Assembly (NCBI GenBank): GCA_036426205.1
Contig: CM071570.1
Location: 72,122,728-72,186,727 of the forward strand
DNA: 64,000 bases
Source of the DNA: Ascaphus truei
Lineage: Eukaryota > Chordata > Amphibia > Anura > Ascaphidae
Direction: 5' to 3'
Shown here: in pieces, positions 11,100-63,383 of the stretch
Position numbering within the stretch: position 1 is the stretch's first letter
Layout of the letters: each line of letters begins with the position of its first letter
Notes under the pieces: model-generated
Told to the model about the DNA's origin: nothing
The model's database searches: none
The model's input: the letters and a program-made list of their open reading frames with translations, nothing else
Translations under genes and position numbers: made by a program

Positions 11100-12630
11100 A
11101 AGAGGGACACATGGTACTTCCCTTTGACCCAAACGACAAAAGTCTCCCTCCGTAAAAATAGGATAACTGCACCAGATGGATCTAACAAATTCTAAGAAGC
11201 ATGAAGATCACTGTAACAGGGAACACCCTGTTACGATCAAATAGCATTGGCAGACTAGAAGGAAATTCAAAGTATGGCCTCTAAGGTAACACTAAACCTC
11301 TGTACAGAAGTCGCAGTGGTAAGTGGTTCAAGCTAATGCTCCTTAATGGATAATGTCAGTCTGGTACGATAAAGCAGAAACAGCCACTGTGCCTCATAGA
11401 ACGAACAATGCAAAGGCCATACATTACAAAATCAGAGTTGTCAGTCCGTTTGAGCAACTGCCAGCAATGTGTACCAGCTGCTTTGAGATCTTTGAAGGCA
11501 GGCGGTCCACACACTAGCCGGGTGGGCGGAGACAATCCCCTTCAGCAGTTCCTATAGGTGGCTGTGTGATACATCTCAACTGCAGGGTGATCAAGGTGAA
11601 AGCTGCGGCTTCTCCGGCGTCTGATGTCACACGCAGGCCTCACCCCATGGGTGCTGACGGGTCCGCTCTTACCGTGGGATGGGAGAGTGCTCTATCTGTG
11701 GTTTCCATAACTACCAGATAGCTTCCCAGAGAATGCACGCGCAATCGCCTCGGCAACCCATGTATCCAATCACCCCACGTAAATGAAGTAACCACAGGGA
11801 AGACAAGCAGTGGGTTAGTGGGGATAGCATGATGAGGGGGACCCTACTACACAATGGAGATGCACTACTAAAAGGAACTAATACAGGGCCCCCCATACCG
11901 AGTAAACCCTATGGTGACCAATGATAATCAAACAAACCTTGCAGAGCAAAGTGTAGTGTAAACTAAGTGTAACCTAGAGCAGCACGGATGCGAAAACAAT
12001 AGTCACTAAATGAAGTGTATACACAAACCAGCACACTAAAGAGTTGGAATGAAAGTCAAATAAAGTTCTAATGAAGCAAATGATCCCCAAATTAGTGCAT
12101 TTTAGGTTCAAGGCTGAGAGAAGGGCCGAGGTGAGAGAAGATCTCAAAGGTCAAGGAAGGTTCTCTGGCTAGATGCAACATTTTGACCAGAGGGCGCTGT
12201 GGGGGGGTTACCTCAGCAGCACCCTTCCATGGTCACGGAGAACGGCACAGCCTCCAAATCGAATGGTCTGTGGAGGTGATGGGGATGGTCAACTAACGTT
12301 TTATTTGGAGGGTTATAGTGACCGTTATCAAGTCATACAGTATGGAGAAGTATCGGCGAGTGGGTCATCTGACTCGAAAGCTACTACAGAAAGAGTCTAG
12401 ATGGATAAGGACATTGGGCACCCTAATCCCAGGGGGGATGAATAAAGAACTTGATCTAAGCTGCTATTTTTGATTTGCTGCTTTTATAGATTTGGAACAC
12501 AGGCAGCCGTCTCTGGGGTTGTCTTACTATTGGTGTCACTTCACCCCCCTCCTTTTTTTTGTTTCCCCTTTTTCCCCACTTCCTCCCCTCCCCAATATGC
12601 CAGTTGGGCTTACATCATTTTTTTTTTGAA
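11100..12630. other. Moderately GC DNA of unknown nature
   Basis: No coding or repeat signature was recognised. The only open stretches lack known motifs. Confidence 0.4.
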
Positions 12631-14130: not shown

Positions 14131-14896
14131 CCCAGTGATGCGCCCCCAAGTGATGTGCCTACTCCCCCCGCTGCGAGCACCTCCCATGTCCCGTACCTCC
14201 GCTGGGGGGCTGGCTGCAGCAGGAAACACAGCCCACAGCTCCACCGGGGGGAGGAGACTCAGACAGAGTTCCCCGTGTCCGCAGCTACCTCGTGGTGGGG
14301 GTAGGTCACAGAGAGAGACATACACACCACAGAGAGACACACACAACACCAAACACACTGACTGACACACGCAGATAACAAGAATTCAGTTACTATAAAT
14401 AGAAGTGCAAATAGCTAAAACATGTGGTCAAACTTTTGTGTTTGGAAGTGAAATTGTTTGTGATTTTTAATTAAAACTCACCCACAAATAAAATTCTGTG
14501 ACAAAAACAAGAAGTTTCACTTACTATGCGCGTGTCAGACACACCAGCTTTTTTTTTTACATTTTTTTCCCGAGATGTGTATTATGCAGTATATGTCATT
14601 TTTAATATTTAATATAATATATTATTATAATATATTAGCAACTGTAAATATTACTGTATGTTCATTTGCATGTCTTAGACAGGTCTGCAACCCTGTCTTT
14701 CCCCATTGTCACCCAGCATACAGCGCTTCCACTGCAGCAAGGGATTCTGGGAAATGACATGCAAATGAGCACTCAGTGCCACCTTTTGTCTCAAGCTCCT
14801 ATTACACAAGCCAATCCTCAAGCCAATGCATGCTGTTTTAAACACAGCTTTTAGACAGAGGCTGGGATGAGATGAGATGCAAAGCCATTAGACCCA

Positions 14897-14939
14897 CTCA
14901 CATACATGTTTCAACCTTGATGGGTATCATCAGTGTGAG
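14897..14939 (-). ncRNA. Hammerhead ribozyme, type I (HHR1)
   Basis: Read on the reverse strand, helix I is CTCACA/TGTGAG (6 bp, 14934-14939 with 14897-14902). The core is CTGATGA (14927-14933). Helix II has ACC/GGT closing CATCAA, with flanking U-U. GAAAC lies at 14908-14912, and a minimal helix III AC/GT precedes the GUA cleavage triplet. Cleavage is predicted between 14903 and 14902. All invariant core bases are present. Confidence 0.8.
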
Positions 14940-14990
14940 GCTGTTCTTAATGGCTAGCAGGTTTGAGACTAGACTAGGTAATCACCACTG

Positions 14991-15008
14991 TCATTTAGGT
15001 TATGGTGG
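14991..15008 (-). promoter_or_regulatory. Candidate PSE-like box
   Basis: The reverse strand reads CCACCATAACCTAAATGA, close to the vertebrate PSE pattern TCACCNTNANNNNAAARNG over its first half. It lies 136 bp downstream of the DSE-like block at 15144-15177 and 52 bp upstream of HHR1. Both spacings fit an snRNA promoter initiating near the ribozyme. No TATA box follows, which would favour RNA polymerase II. Confidence 0.45.
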
Positions 15009-15143
15009 GTAAAAAAAGTGACAAAAACCCTCCACAGTAAAGCATAAAGCAACTGTAAATATTACTGTATGTTCATTTGCATGTCTTAGACAGGTCTGCA
15101 ACCCTGTCTTTCCCCATTTTCACCCAGCATACAGCGCTTCCAC

Positions 15144-15177
15144 TGCATCAAGGGATTCTGGGAAATGACATGCAAAT
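15144..15177 (-). promoter_or_regulatory. Candidate snRNA-type DSE (octamer plus STAF-like site)
   Basis: On the reverse strand ATTTGCAT (15170-15177) is followed after 4 bp by TTTCCCAGAATCCCTTG (15165 downward). Octamer and STAF/ZNF143 sites together form the distal sequence element of vertebrate snRNA and U6-type promoters. The block is repeated in unit 1 (14737-14766), where the STAF-like part reads TTTCCCAGAATCCCTTGC, and in the other hammerhead repeats. Function is inferred. Confidence 0.5.
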
Positions 15178-15302
15178 GAGCACTCAGTGCCACCTTTTGT
15201 CTCAAGCTCGTATTACACAAGCCAATCCTCAAGCCAATGCATGCTGTTTTAAACACAGCTTTTAGACAGAGGCTGGGATGAGATGCAAAGCCATTAGACC
15301 CA

Positions 15303-15345
15303 CTCACATACATGTTTCAACCTTGATGGGTATCATCAGTGTGAG
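15303..15345 (-). ncRNA. Hammerhead ribozyme, type I (HHR2)
   Basis: Identical in every helix and core position to HHR1, one unit away. Predicted cleavage lies between 15309 and 15308. Cleavage at both sites of a read-through transcript would release a monomer of 406 nt. Confidence 0.8.
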
Positions 15346-15429
15346 GCTGGTCTTAATGGCTAGCAGGTTTGAGACTAGACTAGGAAATCACCACTGTCAT
15401 TTAGGTTATGGTGGGTAAAAAACCCTATA

Positions 15430-16126: not shown

Positions 16127-16148
16127 ACTGAGTGACAGTGTGTGTGAC
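15841..16148. repeat. GT-rich microsatellite with GTGTGACTGAGTGACA units
   Basis: Alternating (GT)n and GACTGAGTGACA units fill this interval. Long open stretches on both strands here are artefacts of the repeat. Confidence 0.9.
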
Positions 16149-16480
16149 ATGCAAATGAGCACACAGTGCAAGTTTTTGCTTCAAAAACCATTTTTAACAT
16201 GGTTCCCTATAGGCTTAAGCTTGCTGCACGGTCACAGCTTTGAGCACAGCCAGGGTTAAGGTGCATACCCAGAAAACCACCCACAGACAGCTGTTTCGAC
16301 CTTAATGGGTCTCATCAGTGTGGGGCTGATTAACTGGGTATGCAAAGAAGCTAAAGGATAGGCCAACCATAATACTGGGTTAAGGCGGGGTTGCAGACCT
16401 GCCTAAGACATGCAGATGAGCATACAGTTGTATTTACATTTGCATATTTGCTTTGCTGTGGAGGGTTTTTGTCACTTTTT
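16149..16480 (-). repeat. Hammerhead repeat, second subfamily
   Basis: A non-tandem copy related to the 14637-15427 units (ACATGCAAATGAGCAC at its left, then hammerhead), but with a diverged middle. From about 16385 a segment related to the opposite orientation follows (GCAGACCTGCCTAAGACATG, then GTGGAGGGTTTTTGTCACTT), so the locus is partly inverted. Its right side merges with a GTATGT microsatellite and the gap. Confidence 0.65.
16280..16324 (-). ncRNA. Hammerhead ribozyme, type I (HHR3)
   Basis: The most regular hammerhead in the window. Helix I is CCCACA/TGTGGG (16319-16324 with 16280-16285) and the core is CTGATGA (16312-16318). Helix II GACC/GGTC is fully paired, then GAAAC, helix III AC/GT with an AGCT loop, and a GUC triplet. 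Cleavage is predicted between 16286 and 16285. Confidence 0.85.
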
Positions 16481-16507
16481 TTACTCACCCTAACTTAACT
16501 CAGTATT

Positions 16508-16515
16508 ATGGTATA

Positions 16516-16594
<79 letters not shown>

Positions 16595-16596
16595 GT
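16508..16596. repeat. (GTATGT)n microsatellite
   Basis: A perfect hexanucleotide run that enters the assembly gap. Confidence 0.95.
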
Positions 16597-16902
16597 NNNN
16601 NNNNNNNNNNNNNNNNNNNNNNNNNNNNNNNNNNNNNNNNNNNNNNNNNNNNNNNNNNNNNNNNNNNNNNNNNNNNNNNNNNNNNNNNNNNNNNNNNNNN
16701 NNNNNNNNNNNNNNNNNNNNNNNNNNNNNNNNNNNNNNNNNNNNNNNNNNNNNNNNNNNNNNNNNNNNNNNNNNNNNNNNNNNNNNNNNNNNNNNNNNNN
16801 NNNNNNNNNNNNNNNNNNNNNNNNNNNNNNNNNNNNNNNNNNNNNNNNNNNNNNNNNNNNNNNNNNNNNNNNNNNNNNNNNNNNNNNNNNNNNNNNNNNN
16901 NN
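16597..16902. other. Assembly gap
   Basis: 306 undetermined bases, bounded by the GTATGT repeat on the left and by TGCAAATGAATATACAGG, a hammerhead-repeat fragment, on the right. Confidence 1.
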
Positions 16903-16950
16903 TGCAAATGAATATACAGGAATATTTACAGTTGCTATTTATATATATAG
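16903..16950 (+). repeat. Hammerhead-repeat end fragment
   Basis: TGCAAATGAATATACAG and AATATTTACAGTTGCT match the end of the 0.4-kb hammerhead units in forward orientation. The remainder of this copy presumably lies in the gap. Confidence 0.6.
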
Positions 16951-40430: not shown

Positions 40431-40734
40431 CACACGCATGCAGAATATTGCTTGGATTGCTCATTTAGGCAGAAATAACTACTACTGTTGTTGAAGTGTG
40501 CAACACATTGCAATCCCCAAATCTAGGGCACAAATTTGGGCATAAAGCACTCAAATGTGCTTCTAGAATGATAAAGGTTTTCCAAAAAAAAATATTTTTT
40601 GTTTGTGTCTATGTCAAAAGTGATACAATTTTGGTGACAATTGTCTTACATTTGATGCAGAACACACACGCGCACACACACACGCACACGCACACACTTT
40701 AAGTTATGGTGGTGAAAAAGGCTCCCACTGCAGC

Positions 40735-40985
40735 AAGGGATTTTGGGAAATGACAAGCAAATGAGAACATAATGTGTCACCTTTTGCCTGGAATATCCAT
40801 TCACATAGAGCCCATTTAAGCAAATGCATCGCCGTTCACACAGCTTTTAAGCACAGCATGGGACTAGCAAAGCAAGTCAAACCACTCACAGACATGTTTC
40901 AACCTTGATGGGTATCATCAGTGTGAGGTTGGTTTATATTTGCTTTGCAATATTTCTAGGCTGGGTAGGTTTTCAAGGGATTCTG
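40735..40985 (-). repeat. Hammerhead repeat, reverse-oriented arm
   Basis: Carries the STAF-like TGCAGCAAGGGATTTTGGGA block, the middle region and hammerhead HHR4 on the reverse strand. At about 40970 the orientation flips, and a forward-strand copy begins near 41000, so this forms one arm of an inverted pair with 41000-42485. Confidence 0.7.
40885..40927 (-). ncRNA. Hammerhead ribozyme, type I (HHR4)
   Basis: Helix I CTCACA/TGTGAG (40922-40927 with 40885-40890), CTGATGA (40915-40921), the same helix II as HHR1, GAAAC, helix III AC/GT with AT loop, and a GUC triplet. All core bases are intact. Cleavage is predicted between 40891 and 40890. Confidence 0.8.
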
Positions 40986-41110
40986 GGAAATTACATGTGA
41001 ATGGATATTCCAGGCAAAATGTGACACATTTTGTGCTGTCATTTCCCAGAATCCTTTACTGCAGTGGAAGGTGATAATGGTTGAAAGGCAGGGTTGCAGA
41101 CCTGTCTAAG

Positions 41111-42042
41111 GCTGAGTTCAGGGTGCCAGAGACAGGAGGTGGAGGGCGCGCGTCAGTCTGCTGGGCGATGTGTGCACATCATCCCCAGCAGACCTTTTCA
41201 AGCTTTCAGGAGGTGGGGCGACAGACAGCAGCTTAGGGATCGGTGTTGCTGTGTTGAAATCATTCTCAAGAATGATTTCATTGGCTGCCGAAGTACCAGT
41301 GATGCTGCTGCAGCTTCAAAAAACAACTTGGGTTGTTTATTGAAACTGTAGCAAGCGTCAACTCCGTTCTTCGGCGACAGGGCAGCTGCTACCCTGACAT
41401 CTGCTATTCAGTTGAAACAATTTATATCGAACGTCCGCCCGCGCGTAAGCATGCCTCCCCTCCAAAGCTGGCTTCCTGAACGAGGCCCAAGGCCTGGGTC
41501 CCGCTGCTTCCGACAGCCCGTGCGGCAGCGCGGCAGTGGACCACCTTTCCTGTAGTGTGGAGGTCCCCGCTGGCTCCTTACTACTTGGCTGACTGTGTGC
41601 TGTGACGCGTCAGCCGGCCGATGCTGCAAGCTCCTAGTGATTTGCAGCTCTGACGCGTCACATTGTGCGGCAGTCAGCCAATGCGGGAAGGAGGGGAGGG
41701 AAGGCGCTACGGATGGGAGGCGCCTTGGGAGGGGAGCAGGGAAGAAGCTGCGGGGGAAAAGTGTGTGAGTGTATATGTATGTGTGTATGTATGTGTGTGT
41801 GTATGTGTTGTGTGTATGTGTTGTGTGTATGTGTTGTGTGTGGGGGCGGTGGGGGGGGGGTGGACGGCACCACGGACCACGATCTTTACGAAGTTTTACC
41901 ATGCCCCCCCTCCCACTCCCACTCCCGCCCCCCCCCACTCCGGCTCCCGGCCCCCTACAGACCGCATATCGCGGTCAATTGCCTGTCAGCGTGCCGCCTG
42001 TCTGCAGTGCGGGCGCGCTGACTGAGGGAGCGGGGCCGTAGC
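41111..42042. mobile_element. CpG-rich insertion flanked by CTAAG
   Basis: A 932-bp segment interrupts the hammerhead repeat and is flanked by CTAAG at 41106-41110 and 42043-42047. It begins GCTGAGTTCAGGG and ends GGGGCCGTAGC. It contains an inverted TGACGCGTCA motif pair (about 41600-41660), a GT tract and C-rich sequence. Open stretches across it reflect composition. Superfamily not recognised. Confidence 0.6.
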
Positions 42043-42194
42043 CTAAGACATGTGAATGTGCTCACAAGTGATATTCTTTATTGGCTATATGCTAACGGTG
42101 GAGGTTTTTTATTGCCCTTTTCACCCACCATAACTTAAAATGTGATGGCAAACCTAACCAGCCTAGAAATATTGCAAAGCATGTATAAACCAAC

Positions 42195-42237
42195 CTCACA
42201 CTGAGGATACACATCAAGGTTGAAACATGTCTGTGAG
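42195..42237 (+). ncRNA. Hammerhead ribozyme, weakened (HHR5)
   Basis: Helix I CTCACA/TGTGAG, CTGAGGA (42201-42207; the variable position is G), GAAAC and a GUC triplet are intact. One helix II pair is lost (ACA opposite GGT), which should reduce activity. The PSE-like CCACCATAACTTAAAATG lies 53 bp upstream at 42125-42142. Confidence 0.65.
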
Positions 42238-42485
42238 TGGTTTGTACTTGCTTTGCTATTCCCATGCTGTGCTTAAAAGCTGTGTGAACGGCGATGCATT
42301 TGCTTAAATGGGCTCCATGTGAATGGATATTCCAGACATAAGGTGACACGTGTGCTCATTTGCACGTCATTTCCTAGAATCCCTTGCTGCAGTAGGAGCG
42401 CTGTATGCTAGGTGATAATGGTTGAAAGGCAGGGTTACAGACCTGTCTAAGACATGTGAATGTGCTCACAGGTGATATTCTTTAA

Positions 42486-45747: not shown

Positions 45748-46050
45748 ATAGCCGGTAACCATCTTCAAGGTTGAAACAGCTGTCTTGAGTAAGTTTATTT
45801 GATATGCACCTCTGTAACCCAGGCAGTTCTGCGTAATATAGCAGACATAAGCTTAAAGGGGTCCATGTTAAAATGGACATAAAGCAAAAGGTGACACTGA
45901 GTGTTCATTTGCATGTTATTACCCAGAATGCCTGGCTACAGTGGAAGCACTGAGAGATTATGGGGAAAAGCAGGTTTGTGGACCTGTTGAGACGTGATTG
46001 TGCTCATACATGGAATTTTTATTTGCTGTACCCAGTACTGGGAGAAGAGC
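45748..46050 (+). repeat. Hammerhead-repeat relic, 5' part missing
   Basis: The 3' half of a hammerhead (CAAGGTTGAAACAGCTGTC) is followed by the usual downstream half, with TTCATTTGCATGTTATTACC and CCAGAATGCC. The CTGATGA box is lost (ACCATCT instead). It is closest to the HHR3 subfamily by its AGCTGTC helix III. Confidence 0.65.
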
Positions 46051-47733: not shown

Positions 47734-48295
47734 CCGATGTGGATGTGTTTTATGGCTAGAGGTGTCAAAGGGTTACTGAAAGCAAGTGAAGAAAGAGTGT
47801 GTATGTGTATCAGTGTGAATAAGGGGGGGGGATTCTGAGCAAGGGGGGATCGGAGCATGTGCCCTCCTCCACAACTGCTGCCCGGTGTGTGGTGTGTGGA
47901 GGAGGACCGTGTAAGTGCGCGGGGGGGCATTCTGAGCATGGGGGATCGGAGGAGGTCCGTGGACATGCGCAGGGGGGGGGGGAATCGGAGCAGGAGGGGA
48001 TCGGTGCAGGTGCCCACTTCCGCAACTGCTGCCCGGTGTGGAGATTCAAGTTTCTTCCTCTGCAGACTCGCTCTTCTGTGGACGTGCTTTGTAGGGAAGG
48101 GGGGTCTTGGCAAAAAAAAAAAAAAAACTCTTGGCAATATGCCAACACGAGGCAGCCAATCAGGAAAGGGGAAGTTTTATTTTTTTTTTCCCTCCTTTCT
48201 TTCGAGCGCGCAAACAGCCGCCTGACTCACGGGGGCAGGACCAAAACAGTTGGCGGGCCGTATACGGCCCGCGGGCCGGATGTTCCCCACCCCTG
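47734..48295. mobile_element. hAT-like element interrupting the gypsy integrase
   Basis: Its right end at 48295, read inward, is CAGGGGTGGGGAAC followed by a GGGCCGTATACGGCCC palindrome. It lies inside the integrase reading frame. No transposase was recognised. The left end coincides with the PLE fragment, and an 8-bp target duplicate of CACTAAAC was not found, so the boundary may be a rearrangement. Confidence 0.5.
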
Positions 48296-48296
48296 C

Positions 48297-48885
48297 ACTA
48301 AACCATCTGTTTGTGGATGATAGACTGAGGTTCTGAGATGCTTGAGTTTTAGGAGTTTACATAACTCTTTTGTTACTTGGGACATAAATGGTGTTCCCTG
48401 GTCAGTTAAGATCTCTTTAGGAATTCCGACCCGGGTAAACAGGACTATTAACTCTTTTGCTATGTTTTTAGCAGAGGTGCTACGTATGGGAATTGCCTCC
48501 AGATATCGGGTGGCATAATCTAATATTACCAATATATGCTGATGTCCCCTAGCCGACTTTATTAGGGGTCCTACTAGATCCATAGCAATCCGGTTAAATG
48601 GTACATCTATTATGGGAGGGGGTACCAATGGACTACGATACGCTTTGAACGGGGCGGTGATCTGATATTCTGGGCATGAGGAGCAATAATTTGTAATTTC
48701 TGCCAGAACCCCAGGCCAATAGAAGCTTCGGAGAACCTTTTCTTTTGTCTTTTCCACCCCTAGGTGTCCCCCCAATGGGTGACTATGTGCGAGGTGTAAT
48801 ACTACATTACAGAATGTCCGTGGTACCAACAATTGTTTAGTTATAATTGATTTCCTTTTATCAACCCGATATACTAGGTCATTCT
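48297..48885 (-). pseudogene. Ty3/gypsy integrase, truncated
   Basis: The reverse strand encodes the N-terminal zinc-binding HHCC (H18, H23, C50, C53 counted from the Met at 48832) and the catalytic core with MDLVGPL (Asp about 85) and TDQGTPF (Asp about 144). Reading ends just after HPQTDGLV, one or two residues before the expected catalytic Glu, at the hAT junction. Integrase joins retroelement cDNA to host DNA. It lies directly downstream of protease with a frame change at a CCCC run (about 48893) and no reverse transcriptase between. That order is known for Gmr1-like gypsy elements. Non-functional as it stands. Confidence 0.85.
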
Positions 48886-50426
48886 CTACCTCGAAGTAGG
48901 GGTAGCAAGTGACCTATCTGGTTGGCCAGGAGTACTATTCTGGTCCCATATATTCCCCCTTGCTTCCGCTAATGTGGGGTCTTCCCACTGGGCCTTCTTA
49001 AAACTCCCAGGACTGACCTCTAGGTCAGCGAAGGTCTTATCCTGTTCTGGGGTGGTAAGCACCTGTTCAACATCTTGATTTGGGGTATTCCCTACGAAGG
49101 TGGCCATGGGAAAGGGGATTTTACAGCACTCTTCCTCTTTCCCCTTTTTATTTGGGCCCTCGTCAACCTCCATTTCTGAAAAAGGGAAAGGATTTGTTTC
49201 TTCTGTTACTTCTTTATGGTCCGCTATTGAACTCTGGGTGCTATTCTGAGAGGAGGACCACATTTTTAGAAAATGGGGAAAGTCGGTCCCTATTAACACA
49301 TCATGTGCCAATTTGGGTACTATACCCACTTTGAAATCTAAAGAACCAAACTCTATTTCAATAAGAACACCAACAGTGGAATATTCATGATTATCCCCAT
49401 GTATACAACAAATTGCCACTCTTTGTGACCTGTTTACCTGTTTTTTCCCAATGGGCAACAGGTATACGGACACTAGTGTAACCATACTCCCAGAGTCAAG
49501 TAGTGCCCGAACCCTCTTACCATTTACCTTTACAAATGCCCAGAGATGGTTATTCAAGGGGTCCTCTGGGCTAGGGCCCATACATTGAGACCACAACGAA
49601 TAAGGTTCAACGCTGTTGCATTGCATTGGTTCAATATTTAGTGGGCAAACTTTCACGGTGTGGCCCCTCTCATAACAATTTACACATTTAGGTACATAGT
49701 CTGTGTCCCACTTAGAGCCCTTTTTCGGCTCTCCATGTTGGCGGTTGCCCTTAGTATGCGAGCCACTGTTTCTGGTGCTGTGTGAAGGTGGTCGTCGCTC
49801 TTCAGCCCCCCTTAACCCTGGTACCCTTTTACTGCCTTTGGAAGAGTCCTGGAACCTTGGGTAGTGGGGATAATCCATGACTGTGGGTTGCAGGTGCTCT
49901 TCTGCTGCATTGTACCTTTCTACGAGGGCCACCAGCTCATCTGCATTGTGGGGTTCACTCTGACTGACCCAACGGCGTAGGGCAGAGGGAAGTTTCCTCA
50001 AGAACTGGTCCATGACCAACCGTTCCACGATGTGGCTTGCTGAGTTGATCTCGGGTTGTAGCCACTTCCGAGCGAGGTGGATGAGGTCATACATCTGGGA
50101 TCGGGTTGCTTTATCCAACGTGAAGGACCATGCATGGATCCTTTGGGCGCGAACGGCCGTGGTTACGCCGAGGCGGACGAGGAACTCGAACTTCAATTTT
50201 GCATAGACGTTAGCTTTGGCTGGCTCTAGATCAAAGTAAGCCTTATGGGGTTCGCCGCTTAAGAAGGGTGCAATTAGACTGGCCCACTCAGCTTCTGGCC
50301 AACCCTCTCTCTGTGCCGTGCGTTCAAACATGAGAAGATAGGTTTCAACATCATCCGAGGGCCCCATCTTCTGAAGGTAGTGGCTTGCCCTGGTCATTTT
50401 CGGGACTGGGACTGCCTCTGCCAGTG
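48886..50426 (-). pseudogene. Ty3/gypsy gag-protease with SCAN-like capsid domain
   Basis: One long frame covers the C-terminal part of Gag and the protease. Residues about 15-165 (from the Met at 50397) form a SCAN-like helical capsid domain, with YLLMFERTAQREGWPE and LVMDQFLRKLPSALRRWV. A basic linker leads to a CCHC knuckle (CVNCYERGHTVKVC, about 237-250), then a retropepsin with ALLDSGS (catalytic Asp about 300) and a VLIGTDF strand. Mammalian SCAN domains are thought to derive from Gmr1-like gypsy capsids, so this element is of that type. The upstream Gag is cut off by the insertion at 50442-50921. A partial indel-rich copy is at 53781-55076. Confidence 0.85.
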
Positions 50427-50441
50427 GAGTCTTAATGATAG

Positions 50442-50921
50442 TATATGTGTGCAGCGCACAGCCAAGGAATATAGAAGCTGGTCTGGCAAAAAAATCTTTT
50501 ATTGATTAGGAGATCATAAAAATAGAGGGTGGTAAAGCCTTCTACGCGTTTCGTGCAATGGATAGCACTTTATCAAGAACTTCTTGATCTCCTAATCAAT
50601 AAAAGATTTTTTTTGCCAGACCAGCTTCTATATTCCTTGGCTGTGCGCTGCACACATATACTACATTGGACTTTCCCTTCCGGACACAGCAGCACGCCTA
50701 AGGAGAGAGGGACTGGAGGAAGCATCAAGTGTGAGTACGTTATACCTGGGGCCATCCCAATGAGGTTAGGGGGGGTGTTTTCTTACATTTTCCCCCTGCC
50801 TTCAGGGTAATTGGAGCCTCTATATAGGTTTAGTACCATTATTATACAATTCCCAGTACCATCTCTCTCCCATTATTATCCATGTCAGGTCCATGTACTT
50901 GAGCACCATTCTTATCACTGT
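50442..50921. mobile_element. PLE-derived insertion in gag with 15-bp target duplication
   Basis: GAGTCTTAATGATAG flanks the 480-bp segment at 50427-50441 and 50922-50936. The left part is a palindrome (about 50442-50665) whose arms carry GCCAAGGAATATAGAAGCTG and its complement. At its centre the reverse strand has TTGATAA (50570-50576), helix II GTGC/GCAC and GAAACGCGTA (GAAAC at 50548-50552). Variable, longish duplications and hammerhead cores are known for Penelope-like elements. Confidence 0.8.
50548..50576 (-). ncRNA. Hammerhead-like core with U3/A8 exchange
   Basis: Core TTGATAA, one extra A, a perfect 4-bp helix II (GTGC/GCAC), GAAAC, then GCGTA with a GUA triplet. Positions 3 and 8, which pair in the full-length ribozyme, are U and A rather than C and G. 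Helix I is imperfect. Confidence 0.5.
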
Positions 50922-51229: not shown

Positions 51230-51298
51230 CTTGTTTGGAGAGAATTTTTTTATTTATTTTTTAAAGTTCTTTAACCCGCAGACCTTTTAGTGTTCTGC

Positions 51299-52016
51299 CC
51301 GCATTCTCCAACAAATCCTCACTAAGTCTCCTGGTCAGAAAGCGTATCGCACAGCAGATCCTAATGCCAATTATTGACTATGGAGACATAGTATATGGCA
51401 CGGCACCTCAAACCCACCTTAGCAAACTTGACACCCTCTACAATTCAATTTGTCGTTTTGTTCTCCAATGCAACTACAACACACATCACTGCGAAATGCT
51501 CAAAGAACTAGATTGGTCATCACTAGAGTCTAGGCGCAAAGTTCACCTTTCCTGTCTTATCTTTAAATTCTTTATGGGCAAGCTACCCACCTATCTGAAC
51601 AAACTCCTCACCCCTACCACATGCAGCACTTATCATCTGAGATCTGACTCCAAAAGACTGTTCATGGTCCCAAGGCTCAACAAAGTATCCGGCCGTTCCT
51701 CCTTCTCTTACCATGCACCCCAAAACTGGAACAACCTACCAGAGACTCTCACATCCACCACCAGTTTAAGTTCTTTCAAATCTAAGGCTGTCTCACATTT
51801 TAATCTGGTCTGTAACTGTTACATACGCCCATAACATATATTTTCTTTAACTGTGCATGCAATGTCTTGTATATAATGTATACCCTGTTCATTTATGTAA
51901 CTGTATTTGTAACCATGTATTATTTGTCTTAACTCTGTGCCCAGGACATACTTGAAAACGAGAGGTAACTCTCAATGTATTACTTCCTGGTAAAACATTT
52001 TTTTTTTATAAATAAA
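51299..52016 (+). mobile_element. CR1/L2-like LINE 3' end
   Basis: Encodes LLVRKRIAQQILMPIIDYGD through LSCLIFKFFMGKLPTYLNKL and ends near 51830, the region downstream of RT in CR1/L2-type LINEs. The 3' untranslated region ends with TTACTTCCTGGTAAAACATT and an AATAAAT tail. It is 5'-truncated and inserted between the gypsy LTR and gag. The open frame of about 156 residues suggests a fairly young copy. Confidence 0.8.
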
Positions 52017-58440: not shown

Positions 58441-58455
58441 TATATTTATATATGG
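58385..58455. repeat. (TA)n microsatellite
   Basis: Imperfect TA tract between the duplicated block and the hammerhead repeat. Confidence 0.9.
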
Positions 58456-58915
58456 AGAATGGGGAAAGACAGGGTTGCAGACCTGTCTAAGACATGCAAA
58501 TGAACATACAGTAATATTTACAGTTGCTTTATTCTTTACTGTGGAGGGTTTTTGTCACTTTTTTTACCCACCATAACCTTAATGACAGTGGTGATTACCT
58601 AGTCTAGTCTCAACCTGCTTGCCATTAGACCAGCCTCCACCTGATGATACCCATCAAGGTTGAACTGTATGTGAGTAGGTCTAATGGCTTTGCATCTCAT
58701 CTCAGCCTCTGTTTAAAAGCTGTGTTTAAACGCATGCATTGTTGTGTAATACAGCTTGAGAAAAAGTTGGCACTGAGTGCTCATTTGCATGTCATTTTTC
58801 CCAGAATCCCTTGCTGCATGGAAGCGCGGTATGCTGGGTGACAATGGGGAAAGACAGGGTTGCAGACCTGTCTAAAAATGACATCATGAACATACAGTGA
58901 TATTTACAGTTGCTT
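58456..58915 (+). repeat. Hammerhead repeat, forward, one and a bit units
   Basis: GGGGAAAGACAGGGTTGCAG occurs at 58461 and 58846, giving a period of 385 bp. It holds the octamer (58493-58500), PSE-like box (58568-58585), ribozyme remnant (58635-58675) and a downstream DSE-like ATTTGCAT plus CCCAGAATCCCTTGC block. It lies between TA-rich tracts. Several one-base losses relative to 14637-15047 suggest sequence error continues here. Confidence 0.75.
58635..58675 (+). ncRNA. Hammerhead ribozyme, damaged (HHR6)
   Basis: CTGATGA (58641-58647) and helix II are intact, but GAAAC reads GAAC and helix I is altered. The missing A abolishes the core as written. It may be a sequencing error, given the adjacent error-rich block. 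Confidence 0.6.
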
Positions 58916-61233: not shown

Positions 61234-62085
61234 AAAAAGAGCACATTATTCCAAATGGCTAAGCAATATCCCCCTCAGTCAGTTTAATAGACTGAGGAGG
61301 AATTGCTCGTCCAACCAGGTGTTTGAGCTGCAAGCCGGTCGTCTCATCGACAATTTCAAACAAAAGGGGTATGATATGTCTCTGGTGCAGGAGGCATTCA
61401 AGAAGGTCAGGTCAGGTCGGTTGAACGTGTGGATCTGTTAGCTAAATCAAAGCTCAAACAGTGCAAACAATCCATGCCTTTGGCAGATATCAACACAAAC
61501 AACTGTGGGGTTAAGTTTATTACAAAATTTTATGGTTATTCCCACAAAATTAGACAAATTATCAATCGCCACTGGAAAGTGTTGCTCTCAGATCCGCACC
61601 TCAGCAGTCAGTTGTCCACTGTGGCACCACTGGTCTTCCGCAAGGGTCTAAATATCAAGAACATCTTGGCCCCAAGTAGACTTAGTGATACTTCAGTTGA
61701 GAATAGTGGTTCACAGTTAGTGTCTGGAAACATTAGGTGTGACAGATCTAGATGTCTAATGTGTAGACATCTGCATCTGTCGGATACTTTCTCTTCATTT
61801 AGCAACAAGTCTGAATATACATTAAAAAGTTCAATCAACTGTCTCTCCACATATATAGTGTATGTTTTTTCTTGTCCATGTCAATTGCTATATGTGGGTC
61901 GCACTAAAAGAGCTCTGTGTGTCAGATTCGTGGAATACAGACGTTCCCTCATTAAGGTAGTGCTGGCACACAGTGTTCCTCGACATTTTTCCCAAGTGCA
62001 CCAAAAGGATCCCAAGGGATTTGTTATTATGGGTATTGAGAGTATTCCGAGTACCCTATTAGGGGAGATAGATTTTAGACACTAT
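61225..62085 (+). pseudogene. PLE reverse transcriptase thumb, connector and GIY-YIG endonuclease
   Basis: The first frame (61225-61440) has IPLSQFNRLRRNCSSNQVFE and a helical stretch typical of the PLE region after the RT. The frame changes at a stop near 61440. The next frame (61429-62085) carries HWKVLLSDPHL, a Cys/His cluster (CDRSRCLMCRHLH) and the GIY-YIG core (IVYVFSCPCQLLYVGRTKRA, then Arg in LCVRF). In Penelope-like elements this domain nicks target DNA. The C-terminal helix is cut by the MITE at 62086; the left arm retains its counterpart. A stop, a frameshift and the missing palm make it inactive. Confidence 0.8.
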
Positions 62086-62485
62086 GGGGCTTATGCAGAG
62101 AGGAACGTTAAAAAAGTGTAAAATGGCTATAAAATAGCCACAGATTTGCCGTTAGTGAAGGTGTTATGCAGAGAACGTCGTTACCTCTGGTTACACATTT
62201 CGCCGAAAAACTGCTACTTGCCAACTTTTCCTGGAGACTTGAAACTCGCCATACTAATGCACATATTGGCGCGTTTGCGCGCTTCGGATCTTCTGGAATA
62301 GCACAATATATTAGCATGGCGAGTTTCAGGTTATCGCCAGGTGTTTGGCGACTTTTACTCTGCTGAAAACTTTTCTGCCGGTTTTAAAAAAACGCGCCAT
62401 TTTCTCCCGAGTTAAAGGATTTCTGGCAAGTTTTTTGGCCAGAAGATGGCGCAATTCCCTTTTAGATCCTCTCTGCATAAGCCCC
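62086..62485. mobile_element. Harbinger-like MITE with verified TAT target duplication
   Basis: Inverted ends GGGGCTTATGCAGAGAGG and CCTCTCTGCATAAGCCCC are flanked by TAT (62083-62085 and 62486-62488). The left arm of the palindrome shows the empty site with a single TAT (complement near 60473), so the insertion and its 3-bp duplication are directly confirmed. No coding sequence. Confidence 0.9.
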
Positions 62486-63383
62486 TATGTATGAGAGAGT
62501 CTTTTTGGATATACTCACTTGGTACACTTTCTCCCAGGGGTCTTAATGAGTGTTTGGATACTAGCACACTGGTTTAGTTTCCTGCCTTGCTGTTCTCTGT
62601 CTTTCTGCTATGGTTGCTAGTTCAGTTCCTCTCCCCCTATCCTAGGATGGGGTTCTGTGTTTTTGGAGGGGATTCCTCTATATTATATGATATTTCCTTA
62701 AAGTAGGTGTTATTTAATAGTTAATCAATTTTTTTCCTTTATCTTTTATAATTTTAGTTATTTTTTAATGTAACAATTGTTGTTAATATATGTAATTAGA
62801 TATAATGTTAATTAATGCACTATGTGAATTATTAATCTAATAATTTTTGTTAGTACATATAATGTAAAGATTGTTTTGTGAATGTTGTTCTCATCACACA
62901 AGGAATTAAATAGGTTGATTTTAATATTTTTTTAATTTTATTTAGATTTTTCTATCTTTCATTTTTATATGGTGTAGTGGTATTTGGTTGTTTATATATT
63001 CATATTATTATATTCTAATTAATATATTGATTTATTAATATCTTGTGAAACTAAAATTATAGGTTTAGGTTTTAATTTCAATTTGGTATATATATGTTTT
63101 TTTCCATATTTGATGAAACTTAGATTGGTAATAGTGGGACAGCTTTTTCTAACATATCATTGTGTTAGTTGAGTTTATACATAATTAAATTGTTTAGTTT
63201 TAGCTATTTTCATTGTATGATGTGAACAACATAATTATTGATGTTTTTGTTGTTGTTATTCATTGTAATGTTGATATTTATAGTAATTTTAGAGTTATAC
63301 GATTTGTGGTGAAACTTAGTACCAATGTGAAAATAGGTTTACTTGATCCAGCCTATTTAACTGGCTGTCCCTGACAATCACAT

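Follow-up and report, generated by a model that had tools for sequence, protein, structure and literature searches.

What is the tandem repeat that occupies positions 14637–15422 of this DNA, and why does each of its units carry a hammerhead? The stretch analysed, called the window here, is 64 kb from the genome of Ascaphus truei, an anuran of the family Ascaphidae, which branch early among frogs. An earlier note, made from the letters alone, had described a dimer of a 0.41-kb repeat and had read it as an amphibian retrozyme. Our own reading, to which we give a probability of about 85%, is that it belongs to a family of dispersed, non-coding repeats in which every 0.41-kb tandem unit has its own type I hammerhead motif, most likely a non-LTR retrozyme of a frog, predicted to be self-cleaving and mobile.

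The surrounding sequence agrees with the amphibian host that had been proposed. All 16 database matches of an ORF at 51265–51831, part of a plus-strand repeat (51265–51834) for which no Pfam family was found, come from Ascaphus truei, the best at 88% over 99%, and frogs are among the relatives of two other ORFs. One of these is the gag ORF (48889–50505) of a gypsy-type retroelement on the minus strand (48230–50505), which has a SCAN-domain gag, protease-like and integrase domains and frog relatives; its 36 matches include Pelobates, Leptobrachium, Pseudophryne, Xenopus and other frogs, and also fishes, coelacanth and turtle. The other, at 61375–62118, gave no family in Pfam or PDB searches and was placed by its two homologues, a frog among them. 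Fragments at 61241–62058 (plus), 60706–60402 (minus), 62476–62574 (plus) and 12339–12461 (plus) are relatives of two GIY-YIG/Penelope-like proteins, one of them from the bullfrog.

The tandem dimer and its copies in the window

The two units lie in direct order and their hammerheads are encoded on the minus strand, for which the earlier note had given no strand. Unit A (14637–15047, minus) is a complete unit of 411 bp with a GC content of 0.436, and unit B (15048–15422, minus) is a 5′-truncated unit of 375 bp that starts at unit position 32. By blastn they are 97.4% identical, with five substitutions and one gap over 375 aligned bases, and the proposed period of 411 bp stands. In the sense of the hammerhead, unit A ends at 14637, with AT-rich DNA beyond, and the far edge of the repeat is 15422, not 15427 as had been given. 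The longest ATG frame overlapping the dimer encodes 75 aa, and both the length and the GC content of the unit lie within the range of retrozymes, which consist of tandem non-coding units of about 150–450 bp with less than 50% GC. By eye, no target duplication was seen at this locus. Inverted octamer arms also occur within the unit.

The element is dispersed: blastn located it at five loci in the 64 kb (A/B, E, C/D, G and F), with at least three subfamilies among the copies. Locus E (16145–16936, mixed orientation) is rearranged, since its segment 16365–16145, on the minus strand, carries an intact hammerhead (inner core 16280–16324) and is followed by 16376–16498 on the plus strand, an assembly gap at 16597–16902 and a 3′ end at 16936. 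A perfect (TATGTG)n array, 16514–16902, enters this 306-base gap inside the copy. Locus C/D is split by an insertion at about 41111–42040. Its left part (40697–41110) comprises the inverted copy C on the minus strand, with a hammerhead core at 40885–40927, and then 41037–41110 on the plus strand; its right part (42041–42484, plus) is copy D, with a core at 42195–42237. The inserted sequence is GC-rich, about 930 bp long, has CTAAG at either side and is likely a DNA transposon. In inverted copy C (40974–41037) the unit seems to omit the region from about 313–411/1–61, and again about 326–411/1–30, and it appears as if a shorter variant of the unit may have existed. Locus G (45765–46026, plus) is decayed: the octamer, a Staf-like site and the 3′ point remain, but of the hammerhead only its 3′ half is left. 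Finally, locus F (58455–58915, plus) consists of 1.2 units with a broken hammerhead, and it is the only locus with a candidate target duplication, the 9-bp TTATATATG, which lies within a simple AT repeat.

Divergence is low within loci and high between subfamilies, which are about 25% apart: 1.3% between A and B, 6.8% between C and D and 25.4% between D and A. The partial unit of locus F differs by 10.8% from the full unit of the same locus and by 1.4% from A. In viral contigs and in contigs of prokaryote genomes, exact-pattern searches gave no match to this sequence, as expected for a vertebrate repeat.

Hammerhead structure, covariation and recognition

Hammerhead A, including its outer helix I (AGCCAUUA/UAAUGGCU), spans 14883–14955 on the minus strand, with an inner core at 14897–14939 and a predicted cut at 14903/14902; hammerhead B, likewise with its outer helix I, spans 15289–15361 (minus), with an inner core at 15303–15345 and a predicted cut at 15309/15308. 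The predicted cuts are 406 nt apart, the spacing already noted from the sequence, and not 411 because of the 5-bp gap in unit B. Both cores read CUCACA-CUGAUGA-UACC-CAUCAA-GGUU-GAAA-CAUG-UA-UGUGAG and are of type I, and the features attributed to them earlier (complete core, 6-bp helix I and GUA in each unit) are all present: CUGAUGA, GAAA, the A15.1-U16.1 pair, the GUA triplet and an inner helix I of 6 bp, CUCACA/UGUGAG. Helix I is extended by a bulged outer stem and loop II has six bases, between which the loop 1–loop 2 contacts expected of an animal retrozyme may form; helix III is a single pair closed by a palindromic CAUG loop. A U.U mismatch opens helix II beside the core in A and B. In copy E this mismatch is replaced by a G-C pair, and the inner helix I is CCCACA/UGUGGG.

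How often would such a structure arise by chance? A descriptor requiring CUGANGA, at least three consecutive helix II pairs, GAAA, UH and at least five of six helix I pairs matched the window four times, in copies A, B, C and E, and did not match once in 200 first-order Markov simulations of the window. A chance hammerhead was rejected on this ground. All core bases are kept in five of the seven hammerhead copies examined (A–E), with helix II weakened in D; the hammerhead of F is broken by small changes and that of G is without its 5′ half.

From one subfamily to another a different sequence has taken over the outer part of helix I, whose arms nevertheless still pair, as AGCCAUUA/UAAUGGCU in A and B, GCAAAGCAA/UUGCUUUGC in C and UGCAUACCCAG/CUGGGUAUGCA in E. 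Cognate 30-nt arms pair with −14.9 (A), −21.3 (B), −19.6 (C), −26.8 (D) and −25.0 kcal/mol (E), against a mean of −11.5 and a best value of −15.4 kcal/mol for the 16 between-subfamily pairings. Shuffled arms were as stable as the observed ones in 35 of 1000 cases for A, in 1 of 1000 for B and in none for C, D and E. The outer stem of copy A is thus modest, one foreign pairing (the −15.4 just given) being more stable, and the stems of the other copies are strong. Among A, D, E and G the region of the 5′ arm is the least alike part of the element (identity 0.25–0.33 in 16-base windows, positions ~77–108), and the most similar stretches include the 3′ half of the core (0.94). Taken as a whole, the hammerhead block is not significantly conserved, being equalled by 135 of 410 circular shifts, partly because G is without the 5′ half. 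The covarying stems point to selection acting at the level of the RNA, as far as the comparison of copies can tell.

Recognition by covariance models, which the earlier note had put forward as a check, gave a divided answer. At gathering threshold an Rfam scan of the whole window returned no match, not even for E, presumably owing to the faster filters of that scan, and a scan of 1.1 kb with E-values up to 10 returned five matches, no hammerhead among them. In narrow scans, with 111–151 bases around each core, four of the five cores were called hammerhead, one of them above gathering: in a 151-base scan copy E reached 35.3 bits with RF00163 (Hammerhead_1; gathering 34), a family with which A, B, C and D were not listed. 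For A, B and C, Rfam's top match was RF02275 (Hammerhead_HH9), the hammerhead of the RECK intron, at 18.9 bits (E-value 0.012), 23.9 bits (2.8e-4) and 28.5 bits (9.6e-6), respectively, but none of the three reached its gathering score of 52 bits. For copy D the narrow scan matched no Rfam hammerhead family. That A and B score below gathering, an outcome which the earlier note had named as refuting, and carry a U.U beside the core counts against the retrozyme reading, and mispairing next to the core is given among the exclusion criteria in the accessible text of Perreault et al. (PMC3088659). Nevertheless, the gathering threshold is not decisive for A and B, because the sister copy E passes RF00163.

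Each of the segments that form helix III, ACAUGU and ACAGCUGU, is a palindrome. When two E cores were co-folded without constraint, a double hammerhead was obtained (−35.5 against 2 × −15.0), in which helix III and both arms of helix I pair in trans, helix II pairs in cis and the core bases stay free. Two A cores also paired helices I and III in trans, with a UGAUG/CAUCA hairpin displacing helix II. Free co-folding gave the double hammerhead in one subfamily. A dependence of amphibian hammerheads on dimers is published, in the portion of the source available (PMC7229834).

Insertion anatomy and a predicted split promoter

At all five loci the 3′ ends, which were placed by eye, fall within about 6 nt of one point. 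The common 3′ point (ACAGTTGC or equivalent) ends A, F, E and G, and copy D stops about 6 nt before the 3′ point of A, at a ATATATATA run. Beyond these ends the DNA is AT-rich in A, F, E and D (four of five loci) but not in G; over the five ends, the mean AT content of the next 20 bases is 0.79, against 0.59 in the window (resampling P about 0.001). The 5′ ends vary between loci. At four of the five loci (A/B, F, C/D and E) the copy is longer than one unit, its units stand in direct order and the junction from position 411 to position 1 is present; the copy contains the assembly gap in E and the insertion in C/D. At both E and C/D the 5′ part has the opposite orientation to the 3′ part. A constant 3′ end combined with truncated or inverted 5′ parts is the trace left by target-primed reverse transcription in non-LTR elements. 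The anatomy of these insertions suggests that target-primed reverse transcription begins inside the unit and not at the ribozyme cut. The 3′ end of the element lies 266 nt downstream of the cut, and the copies run through the cut site; therefore, the template would be a circle or an uncleaved multimer, read from an internal start. Likeness within loci (A–B and C–D compared with D–A) is what a single template would give. The divergence within locus F does not fit one circle as template, and a mixed multimer would be simpler there.

Can the unit also direct its own transcription? In unit B a predicted distal sequence element (DSE; 15147–15177, minus) joins an octamer, ATTTGCAT (15177–15170), to a Staf/SPH-like site (15164–15147) that fits 16 of the 18 positions of the consensus; the same pair of sites recurs in unit A (14736–14766, minus), where the Staf/SPH-like site fits 17 of the 18 positions. 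A predicted proximal sequence element (PSE), ACCCACCATAACCTAAATG, a PSE-like site, lies in unit A at 14992–15010 (minus). Its start is 167 bp downstream of the start of the unit B octamer, across the unit junction, a spacing that falls between the octamer-PSE distances of ~137 and ~177 bp derived from positions in the accessible part of PMC3958870. The octamer is ATTTGCAT in A, B, F, E and G and ATTTGCAC in D, and the pattern used found none in copy C. Copies A, B, C, D, F and G each have a Staf/SPH-like site, fitting 16–17 of the 18 consensus positions, at one and the same unit position; E has lost it.

Staf-like sites of this quality number 15 in the window, eight of them inside copies, and simulated windows had a mean of 3.2 and a maximum of 8. 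An exact octamer is accompanied by a Staf-like site no more than 30 bp away in four places, all of them in copies, against three in 200 simulations pooled. The copies are related and hence are not independent evidence for a promoter. Their conservation was compared with circular shifts of the unit: 4 of 410 shifts were as conserved as the block of octamer and Staf-like site (to which E contributes in part only), 26 of 410 as the octamer part alone and 125 of 410 as the PSE-like block alone, which is not significantly conserved. Together, the octamer with its Staf-like site and the PSE-like site suggest a putative snRNA-type promoter, as in newt satellite 2. A 2020 review, in the sections available, has retrozymes seemingly without promoters (PMC7761336).

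A life cycle can be proposed from these elements. Transcription would start near the hammerhead, from a promoter that is whole only across the junction of two units or in a circle. Self-cleavage of the transcripts, chiefly by hammerhead dimers, would yield RNAs of unit length; it would occur after GUA or GUC and be aided when two hammerheads pair through their ACAUGU or ACAGCUGU palindromes. A host ligase would form RNA circles. Reverse transcription of a circle or an uncleaved multimer would begin at one constant site within the RNA, near unit position 411, and read about 1.2–1.9 units, and the RNA would be copied back into AT-rich sites. The enzyme would be supplied in trans, and the leading candidate is a Penelope-like element. 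In vitro, a Penelope-like enzyme started internally and preferred AT-rich DNA, and insertion in that system did not need hammerhead cleavage (PMC11167929).

Alternatives and known relatives

Could the units instead be pseudo-LTRs, left behind by an autonomous Penelope-like element after the loss of its coding part, and not an independent retrozyme? The tandem pseudo-LTRs of Penelope-like elements do contain type I hammerheads, and their targets are AT-rich (PMC11167929 and, in its accessible part, PMC7229834), and remnants of a Penelope-like endonuclease are present in the same window. Against this, none of the five loci is joined to recognised coding sequence, blastn (E-values up to 0.001) found no unit beside the Penelope-like fragments in the window, and helix I is here extended and bulged, whereas Penelope-like hammerheads are described as minimal, without helix III or loop-loop contacts, in the available text of PMC7761336. 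We consider this origin quite improbable. Far less probable still is an ordinary satellite, or a segmental tandem duplication, in which something resembling a hammerhead arose by chance. Unequal exchange can yield an array of two units; however, the silence of the descriptor in the simulations, the covarying stems and the shared 3′ point of five loci speak against it, and a simple satellite was rejected as contradicted by the structure seen between loci.

Whether the family is still active is a different matter. A fossil, once a retrozyme and now dead, would overlap with the retrozyme reading and dispute nothing but present activity. The broken hammerheads of F and G and the distance between subfamilies would suit such a fossil; the complete cores of A and B and their divergence of 1.3% would not, and the latter value makes this insertion rather recent, provided that the two units started out identical. 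On balance, we regard a dead family as unlikely, though it carries appreciable weight.

The retrozyme reading of the earlier note is supported in part: it fits the tandem, dispersed and non-coding arrangement and a type I hammerhead with covarying stems. Its novelty was overstated. Salamander retrozymes of ~330–350 bp, in up to 120,000 copies, and interspersed hammerhead repeats of Xenopus tropicalis, linked by Perreault et al. (2011) to the RECK and C10orf118 hammerheads, were already published, as described in the available parts of PMC7229834 and PMC3088659. Cervera and de la Peña (2020) reported two non-LTR retrozyme families in the axolotl, HHR_Amex1/Rtz_331 and HHR_Amex2/Rtz_353 (PMC7229834, from the same portion). 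Compared by description, the frog element resembles these in its tandem units, which measure a few hundred bp and are low in GC, in its type I hammerhead and in an expected action as dimer; it shares with Amex1 the one-pair helix III with a palindromic tetraloop and with Amex2 the U.U mismatch at the base of helix II. It differs from them in its unit of 411 bp against 331 and 353, in its host, a frog and not a salamander, and in the union of both peculiarities in one ribozyme. The Xenopus tropicalis repeats, as far as their published description goes, are similar in being dispersed, hammerhead-bearing and of a frog. In open-licence literature, judged by titles and the openings of abstracts, we found no description of this hammerhead family in Ascaphus or other frogs.

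Two further systems invite comparison. Newt satellite 2 was reportedly described by Epstein and Gall in 1987 and by Coats et al. in 1994. Both that satellite and the present unit combine a hammerhead with an snRNA-type promoter, here a predicted one; the satellite's use of an snRNA promoter is reported in the accessible text of PMC2220036. In contrast to satellite repeats, the frog element forms dispersed insertions of about 1.2–1.9 units. Penelope-like elements resemble it in their AT-rich targets, in their tandem partial copies and in insertion ends that fall at one constant site inside the RNA (Frangieh et al. 2024, PMC11167929), and differ in that the frog element has no coding part and its hammerhead is extended, not minimal.

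Retrozymes are very small retroelements of animals and a source of natural RNA circles. Animal retrozymes with a type I hammerhead are established, and what this frog family adds is the anatomy of its insertions and a predicted split promoter. A bolder view, which we hold tentatively and think rather doubtful, is that an early-branching frog keeps a live retrozyme with an snRNA-type promoter that is whole only at the tandem or circular junction and with one internal start of insertion, and that this retrozyme comes from the ancient amphibian lineage of hammerhead retroelements to which the HH9 (RECK) ribozyme of amniote introns also goes back. If that were true, the element would need its tandem structure in order to be transcribed, and that structure would be no by-product. 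Three points are open to test: a promoter that the unit junction splits, a constant start of insertion at a distance from the ribozyme cut, and the covariation of hammerheads among subfamilies of a single genome. The frog family would also join the retrozymes of salamanders to the interspersed hammerhead repeats of frogs.
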